Of a stretch of DNA of 64,000 nucleotides, positions 1 to 4,542 are shown piece after piece. A model generated the notes under the pieces. It worked only from the letters and a program-made list of their open reading frames with translations, was not told the DNA's origin and made no database searches. Every line of letters starts with the position of its first letter. Within the stretch, counting starts at the first letter, position 1. This DNA is from Porphyromonas pasteri (GTDB lineage Bacteria; Bacteroidota; Bacteroidia; Bacteroidales; Porphyromonadaceae). Where the stretch lies: the NCBI RefSeq assembly GCF_014647755.1, contig NZ_BMPU01000003.1, forward strand, positions 1-64,000. The letters are read 5' to 3'. A program made the position numbers and the translations under genes.

Positions 1-32
1 TCATCCTGAGCCAGGATCAAACTCTTCATTGT
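1..32 (-). rRNA. 16S rRNA, 5' end only (partial)
   Basis: Read on the minus strand, the first 32 bases end in the universal 16S start, AGAGTTTGATCCTGGCTCAG followed by GATGA. Aligning this to E. coli numbering puts nucleotide 1 near position 32. The rest of the gene lies left of the window. Two tandem promoters sit about 230 and 340 bases upstream. Confidence 0.97.
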
Positions 33-259
33 CAATATTTTTATTGTACTTTGTTCTGTTTGTCTTGCTCTAAAAATGATTCTTGCTTCAGATTTATTAG
101 TGTATCTCTACCTAAGTAAAGGTCGTAATTGACGGTTAGGTCTTCATTTCCCTAAACGTTTGTTACTACACTTCTGTTTGTCAATATCAATTATCTCAAA
201 GATCTCTCAAAGTCAAACTACCCGCGTCACCGCTAGGCCGTTCGTTTCTTTTGCGAGTG

Positions 260-291
260 CAAAGATAAAGCAAAGTTTTCACTCCACCAAA
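260..291 (-). promoter_or_regulatory. rRNA operon promoter P1
   Basis: Minus strand: TTTG (291-288), a 20-base spacer, then TATCTTTG (267-260). This fits the Bacteroidetes -33/-7 consensus exactly. Transcription would start near 253, leaving a leader of about 220 nt before 16S. Confidence 0.85.
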
Positions 292-368
292 TCTTGAGTG
301 AAACTTTTTCGTTACCACTCTCGATCTAAACCCTGTCATTCGCTGCTCGTCCGCCTGACTTGCGACTG

Positions 369-401
369 CAAAGATACAGCAATAATCCCCGTACTTCCAA
401 A
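369..401 (-). promoter_or_regulatory. rRNA operon promoter P2
   Basis: Minus strand: TTTG (401-398), a 21-base spacer, then TATCTTTG (376-369), a second good -33/-7 pair about 109 bases upstream of P1. The -33 box lies on the border of the dispersed element at about 401-720. Confidence 0.75.
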
Positions 402-720
402 TAGAGACGGTTGCCGAAAGTCCTGCCCTCTATTTAGAGTGCTAAGGCATCGCACGCCCAGCTCCCCGATATACCCCTCCGAAGTGATACGCAAGCCCTT
501 CGCCTTATCGCAAATACTCCTCTTATTCAGCGGAGGGAAAAGTATCGTTCTCGTGAAGAAAAAAGCGCCTTCCCGTAGTGGTATTCTTCTATCTATGCAC
601 GTAGTCTTAAAGACTAGGCACGTAAACCCAAATATCCACGTACGTAGATTTATCGTCCACGTACGTAGTCCAAACATTTCTGCCACTCGTCCACAACTTT
701 TATCCCTACGCAGAACAACA
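401..720 (-). repeat. Dispersed ~320-bp element, copy A
   Basis: This is a non-coding stretch that, read on the minus strand, matches 18689-19005 and 53789-54112 almost throughout. Shared landmarks are GCGTAGGGA at one end, four TACGTACGTGG-like palindromes spaced 21-22 bases, a run of T next to CTTC, ATATCGGGGAGCTGGG, and a GATGCCTTAG segment at the other end. Open frames across it on both strands are not conserved in the other copies. It lies between the rRNA promoters and a 22-bp array. Confidence 0.85.
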
Positions 721-800
721 ACCTAAATAGAGGTCGCTTCACAAAGCTATATAGCTTTCTTCACCGTCCTATATAGCTCTACCCACGCACCCATATATCT
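721..800 (+). repeat. 22-bp palindrome array, about 4 units
   Basis: Degenerate palindromic cores such as AGCTATATAGCT (745-756) and TCCTATATAGCT (767-778) recur every 22 bases, with weaker units at about 721 and 789. The array directly touches copy A of the dispersed element, as also seen for copies B and C. Positions 800-970 hold nothing recognisable. Confidence 0.75.
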
Positions 801-970
801 ACATAGGAACTCCGCACACTTACTTCTCCCCGCGAGCACTCCACTTCTCGCGCGCGTACATTATATAATTGGGAGCAGAGCTGAAGATTAGCTACTCCCA
901 CACCGTCCGCATGCGACAGAAGCTCTGACTGCGACACCATCCCAAAGCCCTATAGAAGGACATAATATCA

Positions 971-1072
971 ACCTATATTGGTCAGTGAGTCGACCTATAT
1001 TGGTCGTCGTGCGAACCTATATAGGTTGTTGATGCGACCTATATAGGTCAACCCAGCGACCAATATAGGTTC
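971..1072 (+). repeat. 22-bp array, ACCTATATAGGTC type, 5 units
   Basis: Units begin at 971, 993, 1015, 1037 and 1059, an exact 22-base period. Each is a 13-base near-palindrome (consensus ACCTATATWGGTC) plus a 9-base variable spacer that often ends in GCG or TCG. The sequence is non-coding. Positions 1073-1190 hold nothing else I can name. Confidence 0.9.
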
Positions 1073-1190
1073 ACATCACCCTCTATGCGAAGGTCTCGAA
1101 AACACCCCTGTAAGAGACGACTTCCCCACCCCACTAATGCGCCTCGTCATTATGGGGCCTCACAGATGAAGCTCAAGAGATCCAGTCACA

Positions 1191-1316
1191 AACAACTATT
1201 GGTCTGCATATGAACGACTATTGGTTTGAGGGGCAAACAACTATTCGTTTCGTATGCGAATAACTATTCGTTTGTACCCCAAACAACTATTGAACCAGAC
1301 GCAAACAACTATTGCT
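1191..1316 (+). repeat. 22-23-bp array, AACAACTATT type, 6 units
   Basis: Units start at 1191, 1213, 1236, 1259, 1282 and 1304 (steps 22, 23, 23, 23, 22). The core is AACAACTATTSGTTT, an imperfect inverted repeat (AAAC...GTTT). The core sequence differs completely from the neighbouring array, but the repeat length is the same. Confidence 0.88.
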
Positions 1317-1433
1317 TCACCCCACCTCCTCGCGAAGTATGATTTATACGCCTTCACTTAAGCAGGGAAAGCCCTGCGAAAAAGCAGTAGCGCATACACC
1401 TGCTCCTCACACTCCGATGCAGTCTTCCTACCA

Positions 1434-1464
1434 TTGCGGAGGTATCCGATTATCCATACCTTTG
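1434..1464 (+). promoter_or_regulatory. Promoter of the methyltransferase/DUF262-HNH unit
   Basis: TTG at 1434-1436, a 20-base spacer and TACCTTTG at 1457-1464 form a good -33/-7 pair. The predicted start near 1471 puts the whole structured region 1471-1752 into the transcript, ahead of the methyltransferase start at 1753. Confidence 0.75.
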
Positions 1465-1470
1465 CACTTG

Positions 1471-1752
1471 GAGTCGGGCAGAAGCGTCTGCCAATAGCAC
1501 TCCATCTTTAGTACTAACATAGCGTTTGCTATTTATTCGGAAAGTACCTTCGAACCTAGGAAATTCTAAGCTACGTCGCTCGAATAAGTCAGTGAACGCC
1601 TGCGCATAGCGTAGGCGTGACTTATCTCTTGTGACGTGGGCTATTCCTAGGGCCTGAAGGTACGGAGAGAGGCGCGTCTACGCTTCTCTTTGTACCCAAG
1701 CCCTGAGTAGCCCACCCGAGAGATAGCCAGCGCCCAATTATGCTATGCGCTT
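1471..1752 (+). ncRNA. Highly structured leader or small RNA with possible pseudoknot
   Basis: Between the promoter and the methyltransferase start I find many exact pairings. 1477-1482 pairs with 1487-1492. 1519-1523 pairs with 1528-1532. 1544-1551 and 1555-1562 pair with 1656-1663 and 1644-1651. A long hairpin 1584-1625 has CGC-ATA-GCG at its tip. 1666-1674 pairs with 1681-1689. 1636-1643 pairs exactly with 1708-1715, and 1623-1629 with 1719-1725. The last two helices cross the 1544-1663 helix, so either a pseudoknot or two alternative folds are possible. AGCGC 1729-1733 pairs with GCGCT 1747-1751 just before the start codon. No Rfam family was recognised by eye. Confidence 0.6.
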
Positions 1753-2751
1753 ATGGCAAACAACCAACTCTCTCAAGCCAAGAAGGGGAAGAAGGATGAA
1801 TTCTACACCCAGCTGGCGGACATCGACGCTGAGCTCAAGCACTATCGAGGACACTTCGCAGGCAAGACGGTGCTCTGCAACTGTGACGATCCTAGGATGA
1901 GCAACTTCTTCTACTACTTCGTCCTAAACTTCCATCACCTCGGTCTCAAGAAGCTCATCACGACCTGCTACAAGAATCAAAATCCAGATCTCTTCTCTGT
2001 CAGTGCGACCGAGCAGGCGGTCTACCTCGTCTACGAGGGAGAAGATATCGGCATACCACCTAACCCGAATATCGCTGGACTCGTGCATCCGCTGAAAGGG
2101 GATGGGGACTTCCGCAGTGAAGAGTGTATCGAGTTCCTCAAAGAAGCAGATATCGTCGTCACCAATCCTCCCTTCTCTCTCTTCCGTGAATACATCGCTC
2201 AGCTGATCGAATACCAGAAGAAGTTTATCATCATCGGTAATATAAATGCCGTCACCTATAAGGAGATCTTCCCTTTCGTACAGAGTGAGCAGATCTGGCT
2301 AGGGCCAAGCATTCATAGCGGAGACCGTGAGTTTGAGATACCAAGCAGTTACCCCCTGGAAGCTGCGAGTTCCCGCATAGATGGTGACGGGCGAAAATTC
2401 ATACGCATGAAGGGTGTACGTTGGTTTACCAACTTAGACTTTCCCCAACGTCACCAGGCACTTATCCTTCACAAGAAGTATAGGCCAGAGGAATACCCCC
2501 ACTACGATAACTACGATGCAATCAACGTAAATAAGACCGCTGATATTCCCTGTGACTATGACGGAGTAATGGGAGTACCCATTACCTACCTGGATAAGCA
2601 CAACCCCGATCAGTTCGAGATACTCGACGCGAATGACTTTATCATCGGGAATAGAGCTCCCCAAAAGCCCCATGGCCTAATTAAAGATAAGGATGGGAGT
2701 GTAGAAGGGCGAATCGTATACGCACGCATACTTATCCGTAAACGCAAATAG
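1753..2751 (+). CDS. EcoRI-family adenine-specific DNA methyltransferase
   Basis: Predicted SAM-dependent N6-adenine methyltransferase of the EcoRI methylase family (332 aa). Visible motifs: a CNCDDPRMSNFF segment at residues 42-53, typical of this family's N-terminal region, and the catalytic motif IV NPPF at 138-141. The DEFYTQ segment near residue 15 is also common in the family. The length matches EcoRI-type enzymes, and there is no signal peptide, so it is cytoplasmic. The next gene, a DUF262-HNH protein, starts 9 bases after the stop, which suggests co-transcription. The methylase may mark self DNA for that nuclease, although the recognition sequence cannot be read from the protein. The start codon directly follows a small hairpin (1729-1751) that could mask ribosome binding. 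Function is confident; the role as a restriction partner is inferred. Confidence 0.88.
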   Translation: MANNQLSQAKKGKKDEFYTQLADIDAELKHYRGHFAGKTVLCNCDDPRMSNFFYYFVLNFHHLGLKKLITTCYKNQNPDLFSVSATEQAVYLVYEGEDIGIPPNPNIAGLVHPLKGDGDFRSEECIEFLKEADIVVTNPPFSLFREYIAQLIEYQKKFIIIGNINAVTYKEIFPFVQSEQIWLGPSIHSGDREFEIPSSYPLEAASSRIDGDGRKFIRMKGVRWFTNLDFPQRHQALILHKKYRPEEYPHYDNYDAINVNKTADIPCDYDGVMGVPITYLDKHNPDQFEILDANDFIIGNRAPQKPHGLIKDKDGSVEGRIVYARILIRKRK

Positions 2752-2760
2752 CAAGAGCTT

Positions 2761-3894
2761 ATGAACATTCAACTCGTACACATTAAAGTCCGTGATCTAT
2801 TCAACGGATATCAAGACAACGGCGACAATGGTGTCGTCGCCTATGGAGGCAAGCTGGATGTACGCCCTGCCTACCAGCGCGAATTCGTCTACAAACCCGA
2901 GCAACAGCAAGCGGTCATCGATACCCTTAGCAAAGGCTACCCGCTAAACGTCATGTACTGGGCTGATCATGGGAATGGGCGCTATGAGCTCATCGATGGT
3001 CAGCAAAGAACGCTATCTATCTGCACCTTCCTCGATGGGGACTTCTCCTGTGCTGGACTCTTTGGCATCAAGCAGCCTCAGGCATTCCACACGCTTCCAG
3101 AGGACCTAAGGGTGCAACTTCTTGACTACGAACTCACCGTCTATATCTGCGATGGGACAGAGAGTGAGAAGCTCGAGTGGTTCAAGACCATCAATATCGC
3201 AGGCGAAGAGCTTACCGACCAAGAGCTACGCAATGCGGTCTATATAGGCCCCTGGGTATCAGATGCGAAGCGCTACTTCAGCAAGACGGGCTGTGCCGCT
3301 TACGGGCTTGGGAGCAAGTACCTCAAGGGAACAGCTAACCGACAGGACTACCTGGAGACCGTGATCTATTGGTATGGTGACCGAGAGAACCCCAAACAGA
3401 GCATCGAGGAGTGCATGATGAAGCACCAGCAGGATCCGAATGCCCAAGACCTTTGGGATTATTTCCGACGTGTCATCGAATGGGTCGAGCTGCTCTTCCC
3501 CACCTATCGCAAGGAGATGAAAGGGCTTCCCTGGGGGATCTATTACAACAGATACCACAAGAACACCTACGACCCAATAGCACTGGAGAAGGAGGTTGCC
3601 ACCCTGATGGCTGATGATGATGTGACTAAGAAGAGTGGCATCTATAAGTACGTCTTGGAGAAGGCGATCGGGAACGATGACCCGAGCCTGCTCGGCATCC
3701 GAGCCTTCAGCGACAGCCAAAAGCGCACCGTCTACGAGCAGCAGGGCGGGATCTGCACCTGCTGTGGGAAGAAGTACAAGTACGAGGAGATGGAGGGCGA
3801 CCACATCAAGCCTTGGAGCAAGGGCGGGAAGACCGAGATAGAGAATCTACAGATGCTTTGCCGAGACTGCAACCGCCGCAAGAGCAATAAGTAG
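2761..3894 (+). CDS. DUF262 and HNH nuclease (GmrSD-like), likely restriction partner
   Basis: This 377-aa protein has an N-terminal DUF262 domain (about residues 8-250) with the hallmark DGQQRT at 79-84 and an upstream RPAYQREFVY stretch. Its C-terminal zinc-type HNH nuclease (about 325-377) shows C332xxC335, the DHIKPW metal-binding segment at 347-352, and C367xxC370 followed by NRRKSNK. DUF262 proteins of the GmrS class are nucleotide-dependent, and fused DUF262-HNH proteins act in type IV restriction of modified phage DNA. Here the gene is coupled to an adenine methyltransferase rather than standing alone, which would suit either a methylation-protected restriction system or a nuclease that senses methyl marks. 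It starts 9 bases after the methylase stop, and strong hairpins follow it (3923-3947, 3979-4029). Confidence 0.85.
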   Translation: MNIQLVHIKVRDLFNGYQDNGDNGVVAYGGKLDVRPAYQREFVYKPEQQQAVIDTLSKGYPLNVMYWADHGNGRYELIDGQQRTLSICTFLDGDFSCAGLFGIKQPQAFHTLPEDLRVQLLDYELTVYICDGTESEKLEWFKTINIAGEELTDQELRNAVYIGPWVSDAKRYFSKTGCAAYGLGSKYLKGTANRQDYLETVIYWYGDRENPKQSIEECMMKHQQDPNAQDLWDYFRRVIEWVELLFPTYRKEMKGLPWGIYYNRYHKNTYDPIALEKEVATLMADDDVTKKSGIYKYVLEKAIGNDDPSLLGIRAFSDSQKRTVYEQQGGICTCCGKKYKYEEMEGDHIKPWSKGGKTEIENLQMLCRDCNRRKSNK

Positions 3895-3922
3895 CTACGG
3901 ATAGAGGTAGACAGCACACGGC

Positions 3923-3947
3923 CTCCTTGCCTTATTAGGCAAAGGAG
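3923..3947 (+). terminator. Hairpin after DUF262-HNH gene
   Basis: CTCCTTGCCT (3923-3932) pairs with AGGCAAAGGAG (3937-3947) with one bulged base and a TATT loop, 29 bases after the stop codon. There is no T tract, so it may be a processing or pausing hairpin ahead of the longer one at 3979. Confidence 0.5.
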
Positions 3948-3978
3948 TAGTCGCCACCTCTACACCATAATATATAAG

Positions 3979-4029
3979 GGAGAGCCCCAGCCGAATGATC
4001 TGACAGCAGACATTCGGCTGGGGCTCTCC
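3979..4029 (+). terminator. 19-bp perfect stem-loop
   Basis: GGAGAGCCCCAGCCGAATG (3979-3997) pairs perfectly with 4011-4029 around a 13-base loop. It closes the methyltransferase/nuclease unit; the following bases are only weakly T-rich. Positions 4030-4228 show nothing further. Confidence 0.7.
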
Positions 4030-4228
4030 TCCTACTTATCCTCGGTACCACTCAACACAAAGACTTCTCATACACGAGCCCGAAGTAGCGCAACGTGCGG
4101 TAGCATATACGCACCCTACATAAAGAAATTAAATAAGTATCCGCATGGGAACACACCATCTTTCAGATAATTAAAAAGCTATACAAGAGAAGTATAGCGC
4201 CCCTGAAGGGAGGTATTTACCAGCGGAC

Positions 4229-4258
4229 TTGCATAGGAAAGAAAGATTGCTACCTTTG
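4229..4258 (+). promoter_or_regulatory. Promoter of the RagAB-like operon
   Basis: TTG at 4229-4231, a 19-base spacer and TACCTTTG at 4251-4258. The predicted start near 4265 leaves an untranslated leader of about 278 nt before the SusC start at 4543. The leader opens with a hairpin (AGTCTG 4266-4271 with CAGACT 4282-4287). Confidence 0.75.
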
Positions 4259-4542
4259 CTCATAGAGTCTGATATAGCACACAGACTGCCATGGAGCGAG
4301 GGAGATCCGAGTACCACCTCCCCTCACATCGACAGACTGCACTACCACCAGACCGCAGGAATGCTTGTGGCAAGCGGCCGCATGCTCCTCAACAGAGCTC
4401 CTCATCTCGCAGTGGCACACACATCAAATATCACACGTCACATCTTTACCACAGCGAGATGACGACCGAGGAATCATCACCCAAGGGTCACACTCCCCCA
4501 CAGCAGTCTAACATCCGTTTCACCCTAATCACCACAAGTCTA

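Follow-up and report, generated by a model that had tools for sequence, protein, structure and literature searches.

The window analysed here is a stretch of 64,000 nucleotides of Porphyromonas pasteri DNA (RefSeq assembly GCF_014647755.1, contig NZ_BMPU01000003.1, positions 1 to 64,000), near the start of which lie a gene for a methyltransferase, M, and a gene for a nuclease, N. The open reading frame (ORF) map of the window places the start of N 9 bases after the stop of M, both on the + strand, as a preliminary description of this DNA had it. DNA homology to a relative, G406, runs from about 1450 through the stop of N and ends there, and because it is bounded in this way we treat leader, M and N as one unit, with the following features:

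1450..1752, + strand: leader of the unit, in which homology with G406 starts at about 1450; holds a TACCTTTG box and a stable hairpin
1753..2751, + strand: M, an EcoRI-family adenine DNA methyltransferase (332 amino acids; PF13651) and the proposed specificity subunit
2308..2421, + strand: module A, within M at roughly residues 186-223, of the type SGDREF...KGVRW, defined by hypervariability and clustering
2623..2721, + strand: module B, within M at roughly residues 291-323 (the C-terminus), defined by hypervariability and clustering
2761..3894, + strand: N, a DUF262 (GmrSD_N) plus zinc-HNH nuclease (377 amino acids; PF03235, PF01844)
2875..3195, + strand: DUF262 motifs of N (Q39-R40, DGQQR 79-83, FxxxN 141-145)
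3754..3891, + strand: zinc-HNH domain of N (PF01844), with the H348 codon at 3802-3804
3978..4029, + strand: near-perfect hairpin 3' of N (fold of 3975-4040: -48.4 kcal/mol, z -10.4)

The assignment of both proteins is secure at the level of family. M matches PF13651 (EcoRI_methylase) over residues 6-330 with an E value of 1.4e-137 and 459.1 bits, against a curated cut-off of 26.4, and is 88.8% identical to the M of G406; N matches PF03235 (GmrSD_N; E 7.7e-22) and, at residues 332-377, PF01844 (HNH; E 1.8e-16). The NPPF motif of M (residues 138-141) is invariant in 48 sequences, while in 67 aligned sequences of N the DUF262 motifs QR, DGQQR and FxxxN, named as in PMC12137116, are invariant, as are H348 and N362. 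The zinc ligands C332/C335/C367/C370 are present in the window's N, so that the intact NPPF, DGQQRT and complete zinc-HNH of the preliminary description are borne out by Pfam matches and motif residues. DUF1524 gave no match in N at E values up to 0.1, the zinc HNH (PF01844) standing in its place. Among solved structures, N finds matches via its HNH domain plus a weak DUF262 match to 7p9k (E 0.022), and M finds no convincing relative. PADLOC models match both proteins over their full length, PDLC03297 MTase_II for M (E 8.2e-127) and PDLC03418 REase_II for N (E 9e-144). The "little-studied" system of the preliminary description is real and recurrent, but it is catalogued: PADLOC-DB models both proteins as type II. 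What is new is the logic of its specificity. In the open-access full-text literature, with subscription papers mostly outside its scope, we recognised no paper describing the M-N pair.

The pairing of M and N is far beyond chance. A scan of genome contigs confirmed at least 580 relatives of N, and among the best 80, which are drawn from many phyla, an M sequence lies in the same locus in 76, so that the adjacency which the preliminary description proposed to seek in distant genomes does recur there. Two of the loci lacking M (L055, L099) meet a contig edge within 250 bp upstream, and in a third, L103, the 1.7 kb upstream of N contain no M. L096 has M downstream of N; among the other 75, the distance from the stop of M to the start of N is between -26 and +30 bases in 64, and 25 show the 4-base overlap. 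The converse count took PF13651 genes over the Pfam cut-off in 26 genomes of the genus, 395 of the class, and 348, 349 and 346 genomes centred on Bacillota, Neisseria and Rothia, the window's genome (one PF13651 gene) being counted once. It gave 45 genes: 34 beside N, 4 EcoRI-type, 1 beside a D12 methylase (L233) and 6 for which no N neighbour could be established, two of these being cut by a contig edge. Once the window's own genome is set aside, together with the three that served as centres on account of holding the pair, N accounts for 30/41 and the EcoRI type for 4/41. The expectation of the preliminary description that EcoRI-type methylases normally accompany a PD-(D/E)XK enzyme therefore has to be corrected, since the neighbour is N in 34/45 cases and an EcoRI-type enzyme in 4/45.

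The pair also recurs on plasmids and in phages: 50 plasmid records hold N (E 1e-20) and 77 hold M (E 1e-10), and 6 phage records hold N (E 1e-10) and 12 hold M (E 1e-8). Genomes of E. coli queried with a Pasteurellaceae N gene gave no match. A second, viral set, again collected from N, comprises 79 new loci, 78 with a full N; M is intact in 65, a contig edge cuts it in 6, the profile shows it in pieces in another 6, and in 1, with short upstream sequence, it is missing. For those six the label "in pieces" is overstated, as L306 and L346 sit at contig starts and L321 and L342 have no stops, leaving L313 with 3 stops and L285 with a frameshift. One of them, L342 (1914-3758 of a viral contig), carries two M with different modules ahead of one N, the second M having a diverged N-terminus. 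Other departures from the simple layout include a Bro-N gene (PF02498) between M and N at L161:4097-4945 and, by eye, Bro-N or ORF6N-like genes separating the two in L162, L044, L048 and L108; such inserts are found in type I loci too. The EcoRI-family M at L233:5479-9323 has a third type of partner, a D12-class methylase, with an AAA gene alongside, and at L069:2421-6083 N adjoins what looks by eye like a C5 methylase, an NgoFVII-type phospholipase D (PLD) nuclease (PF09565) and a fragment slightly under the ORF6N cut-off.

The evidence that carries our interpretation comes from comparing M and N across loci. From 168 loci with both genes complete, 131 with distinct N were retained and a Gordonia plasmid was added to give 132 pairs (the alignment of M has 143 rows, one a repeat). 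M consists of a conserved core in which two hypervariable stretches, A and B, are set; the alignment of N contains no hypervariable region comparable to either. Among the 132 pairs there are 29 clusters of A (15 single) and 59 of B (31 single), the biggest A cluster (30 members) combining with 20 B clusters; the B of the window clusters with those of L003, L032, L053, L093 and L181. Pairwise identity of N correlates with that of the M core (r 0.82) and hardly with that of A (0.21) or B (0.09). N is at least 90% identical in 16 locus pairs, which span 17 loci and are non-independent; B is unrelated in 15 of them and A in 7. L077 and L082, for example, have N 99.7% identical, an identical A and an unrelated B, with DNA identity dropping at B only, and L052 and L054 share A and differ wholly in B at 98.9% identity of N. 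Both modules are unrelated in L052/L070 (N 96.9%) and in L006/L128, which reside in one genome (N 97.2%). For the latter pair DNA identity, mostly 80-96%, drops at A (38-45%) and at B (28-33%); over most of N it is again 95-100%, and the flanks are unrelated. Identity of segments along N rises with a shared A by no more than 3.0% and with a shared B by no more than 4.6%; inside M itself the gains are 47% and 65%.

A and B are probably the target-reading modules, because they are hypervariable and because M.EcoRI has both in common with two N-paired loci, L048 and L081 (scores 0.84-0.94). M.EcoRI recognises GAATTC, and on account of the shared modules we predict the same target for the M of L048 and L081. 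Provided that A and B do read the target, the co-variation of restriction enzyme (R) and M in recognition that is expected of classical type II systems would be lacking here: the modules of M change and N stays constant.

EcoRI itself offers an internal control. In a tree of the full M alignment, a single clade made up of M.EcoRI and four EcoRI-like M nests within N-paired M, with support of 0.61 for L048 as sister and 0.926-0.958 at the next nodes. With A and B removed, the EcoRI clade is sister to L233 (0.897) within an 85-taxon clade (0.981), weaker nodes of 0.778 and 0.719 lying between. Among the five EcoRI-type M, A and B are kept in 10/10 pairs (scores 0.84-1.00), and R.EcoRI is only 67-81% identical, where measured, among EcoRI-type loci that keep both modules. 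PF02963 identifies the EcoRI-type R as a fragment in L127 and as full in L192; alignment finds it in L235, where it spans two ORFs, and in L234, where a stop splits it. In 3/4 of these EcoRI-like loci (L127, L234, L235) an open M accompanies a fragmentary or split R.

In the N-paired family the damaged gene can be M. A broken M lies beside an open N in 9/80 of the best N loci, a list that favours intact N, and five additional loci (L013, L126, L129, L237 and L263, a Chryseobacterium plasmid) have M in pieces or truncated and N open. N keeps QR, DGQQR, DH and N362 in 14/14 M-broken loci checked, and FxxxN is matched in 12/14, the pattern missing L086 and L126; the opposite loss, of N and not M, is seen in L008 and L017. 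Loss of M thus seems to be tolerated. Some phages carry M by itself. The mycobacteriophages Norz, Hami1 and Marchy have M and are absent from the 6 phage records with N; in Norz, the one whose neighbourhood was read, no N lies near M, and this M is 89.4% identical over aligned residues to the M of the Gordonia KTR9 plasmid, which precedes an N. Since a cognate M would benefit a phage if methylation blocks the nuclease, these lone genes suggest that methylation probably protects DNA from N. Two gut phage proteins (L260:622-2745 and L261:609-2714) fuse an EcoRI-family N6-methyladenine (m6A) methylase to a C5 methylase.

Part of the family appears to exchange module B by inversion. L136 (from the window's genus), L152, L161 and L162 have inverted repeats where B begins, at FEILG or a variant of it, and carry two inverted B modules between M and N. 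Counted systematically, 7/190 M genes have the B start repeated in inverted orientation, versus 0/190 and 0/189 at two control sites, although the copy in L171, 3.9 kb away, is probably chance; L322, with N ahead of M, has an inverted module with a different repeat sequence. L137, also from the window's genus, keeps silent the B module that L136 expresses, and in L152 and L162 (N 73% identical in DNA) the set of three B modules is the same, but between the two loci the expressed module has traded places with one of the silent ones. A tyrosine recombinase gene, Phage_integrase-type by Pfam in the three tested, lies 50-70 bp past N in L136, L137 (split), L258, L152, L161, L162 and L165, and five of these seven loci show inverted silent B modules. 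Repeat tracts (poly-G, AG, CA and pentamers, also poly-A and poly-C) occur in 13/180 M versus 1/170 N sequences (Fisher p 0.0016), and in L013 and L129 the frame of M changes at a G10 tract. Tandem alternative B modules follow the M core in different frames at L086:3900-5003, and the N gene of L330 has a 22-G run at position 1004, near the ends of both gene and contig, which may be an artefact. The window's M (L001) is not among the repeat-tract genes in the scan of 180 M and has no inverted B-start copy among the 190 tested, and of the 7 inverted repeats in window 1-4300 none of the 5 listed lies at B; we read the window's copy as a fixed, non-switching member.

Ahead of M, TACCTTTG at 1456-1463 looks by eye like a promoter box, presumably the Bacteroidales-type -7 box, and G406 has it too. 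The single promoter of the preliminary description is supported by this shared box and weakened by a sigma-70 scan that found 2 sites against 2.7 expected. Directly before M, a hairpin at 1600-1735 (-80.4 kcal/mol, z -9.8) is also predicted in G406 (-76.4 kcal/mol) with a changed stem sequence, and is possibly an attenuator. The closing hairpin 3' of N, noted earlier and confirmed by the fold given above, is followed by no T run and is not common to G406; its Rfam matches were microRNA models with scores far under gathering and were taken as chance. The rRNA operon and repeat-rich gap were upheld in part: a 16S 5' end in reverse complement is read by eye at window 1-30, whereas Rfam at gathering thresholds did not list rRNA at the window start among its matches. 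The stretch that separates the rRNA end from the cassette holds inverted CCTATATAGG/CCAATATAGG-like units at 965-1076 and 1196-1315 and, seen by eye, direct CAAACAACTATTG-like repeats. In a search for an empty site next to the rRNA, flank matches in 3 other genomes of the genus (4/26 with the window's own) correspond to a large downstream ORF, SusC-like by eye.

On balance we find it probable, from these comparisons of genes, that M reads the target and methylates it and that N, lacking specificity of its own, cuts together with M, a logic like that of Type III. M would place m6A and supply target recognition through two exchangeable modules; N, without sequence specificity of its own, would cut under DUF262 nucleotide control solely together with M or licensed by it, at unmethylated copies of M's target; and a change of specificity would need the swap or inversion of one M module, N being left untouched. 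Two arguments favour a dependence of N on M: if N had a site of its own, it could not remain unchanged through shifts in the target of its protecting methylase, and an open N with kept motifs sits beside a broken M. Switching of M or of its specificity at constant N would, moreover, be viable only with an N that is harmless without a matching M, or else inactive. A complex of M with N, the blocking of cutting by methylation and nucleotide use by N are what we infer. The methylation-protected system with a nucleotide-type DUF262-HNH effector put forward in the preliminary description gains support here, with protection made probable by the lone M of phages; that account missed the modules, the constancy of the nuclease, the inversions and repeat tracts of relatives and the dependence of N on M that these imply. 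Its other proposal, a nuclease that senses methylation status, retains some probability. Whether the whole adds up to an unrecognised type of restriction-modification system, in which an EcoRI-family methylase with plug-in modules guides a constant nucleotide-dependent N, a recombinase-inverted silent B switches methylation and restriction together in part of the family, and the EcoRI methylase is an offshoot with a new nuclease partner, is to our minds an evenly balanced question.

One alternative, which we think unlikely, is a licence like that of SspE, with N sensing self m6A in any sequence and cutting DNA without m6A, so that the sequence read by M would be irrelevant. SspE is a DUF262-HNH nuclease that, according to PMC11662687, is active only with its modification and otherwise harmless. 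A licence of this kind accounts for the constant N, the broken M beside an open N and the lone M of phages, and the constancy of N despite changing M equally suits an N that reads only m6A. Other host m6A methylases, which are common, would however blur self and non-self, and we rate an m6A-only N lower because it leaves the strong diversification and switching of M modules without a reason. A conventional type II system, with N reading its own fixed site and M protecting the same site, agrees with the full-length PADLOC REase_II and MTase_II matches and with the tight two-gene layout, yet the modules of M change completely at 97-99.7% identity of N, a broken M beside an open N should kill and is nevertheless present in 9/80 of the best loci, and the EcoRI-like loci keep their modules fixed, with R the damaged partner in 3/4. 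We regard this reading as very unlikely, and the swaps at constant N led us to drop it as the leading view. Least probable is a modification-dependent, type IV-like N directed at hypermodified phage DNA with M as a regulatory or decoy passenger, for although the DUF262-HNH relatives GmrSD, BrxU and GrwAB target modified phage DNA (PMC8565348, PMC12137116), they are typically single-protein systems, whereas 76/80 of the best N relatives have M nearby, a near-constant pairing that disfavours N as a lone type IV enzyme, and the C-terminus of N is a zinc HNH with DUF1524 unmatched.

Several points weigh against recognition by M and cutting by N together with it. The target role of A and B is itself deduced indirectly, and the EcoRI control consists of five M only. 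Residual covariation of N with A (z 4.2, residues 71-85) and with B (z 3.5, residues 296-310) was detected in a permutation test that ignores phylogeny, and in the second viral set, where 10 pairs have N at least 75% identical, 4 share A and 4 share B, so that swaps are less stark there. N stands without M over 5 kb in L069. In M-broken loci N may be inactive where the zinc ligands differ (L084, L126) or the FxxxN pattern is unmatched (L086, L126), and several broken M in metagenome assemblies could be assembly errors. The nuclease of phase-variable Type III systems may be non-functional (PMC3874151), and the same could hold here. Inverted B copies are few (just 7/190, one of them probably chance), and the enrichment of repeat tracts in M was not repeated in the second viral set (1/77 M versus 1/72 N).

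If true, the proposal would add a methylase-guided DUF262-HNH restriction logic that crosses phyla and is now filed as ordinary type II, and it would explain how a target can change without killing the host. The modules would form a modular set of m6A specificities decodable through comparison of A and B, and the origin of the EcoRI methylase would become testable. New candidate phase-variable methylomes, some in the window's genus, are flagged.

Among known systems, GmrSD and BrxU share with N an N-terminal DUF262 with DGQQR; N differs in its zinc-HNH, in giving no DUF1524 match and in its near-constant methylase neighbour. SspABCD-SspE and Dnd-DndI likewise tie a DUF262-HNH nuclease to DNA modification (PMC11662687), but the modification is phosphorothioate rather than m6A, DUF1524 is present and the modifier is a separate multi-gene one. 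The EcoRI system has a methylase of the same family as M, whereas R.EcoRI (PF02963) belongs to a Pfam family other than those of N and the M modules are unswapped in the five compared. Phase-variable type I systems with several hsdS genes exchange specificity modules beside a constant nuclease; here the modules lie within a single-chain EcoRI-family methylase and the nuclease is not HsdR. The Res of Type III systems is a superfamily 2 (SF2) helicase plus PD-(D/E)XK protein, an architecture that N, as a DUF262-HNH protein, does not have. In Type III systems Mod reads the site and guides Res, and some mod genes are phase-variable (PMC3874151); the M-N pair would resemble them in this, a likeness drawn from genomic comparison.

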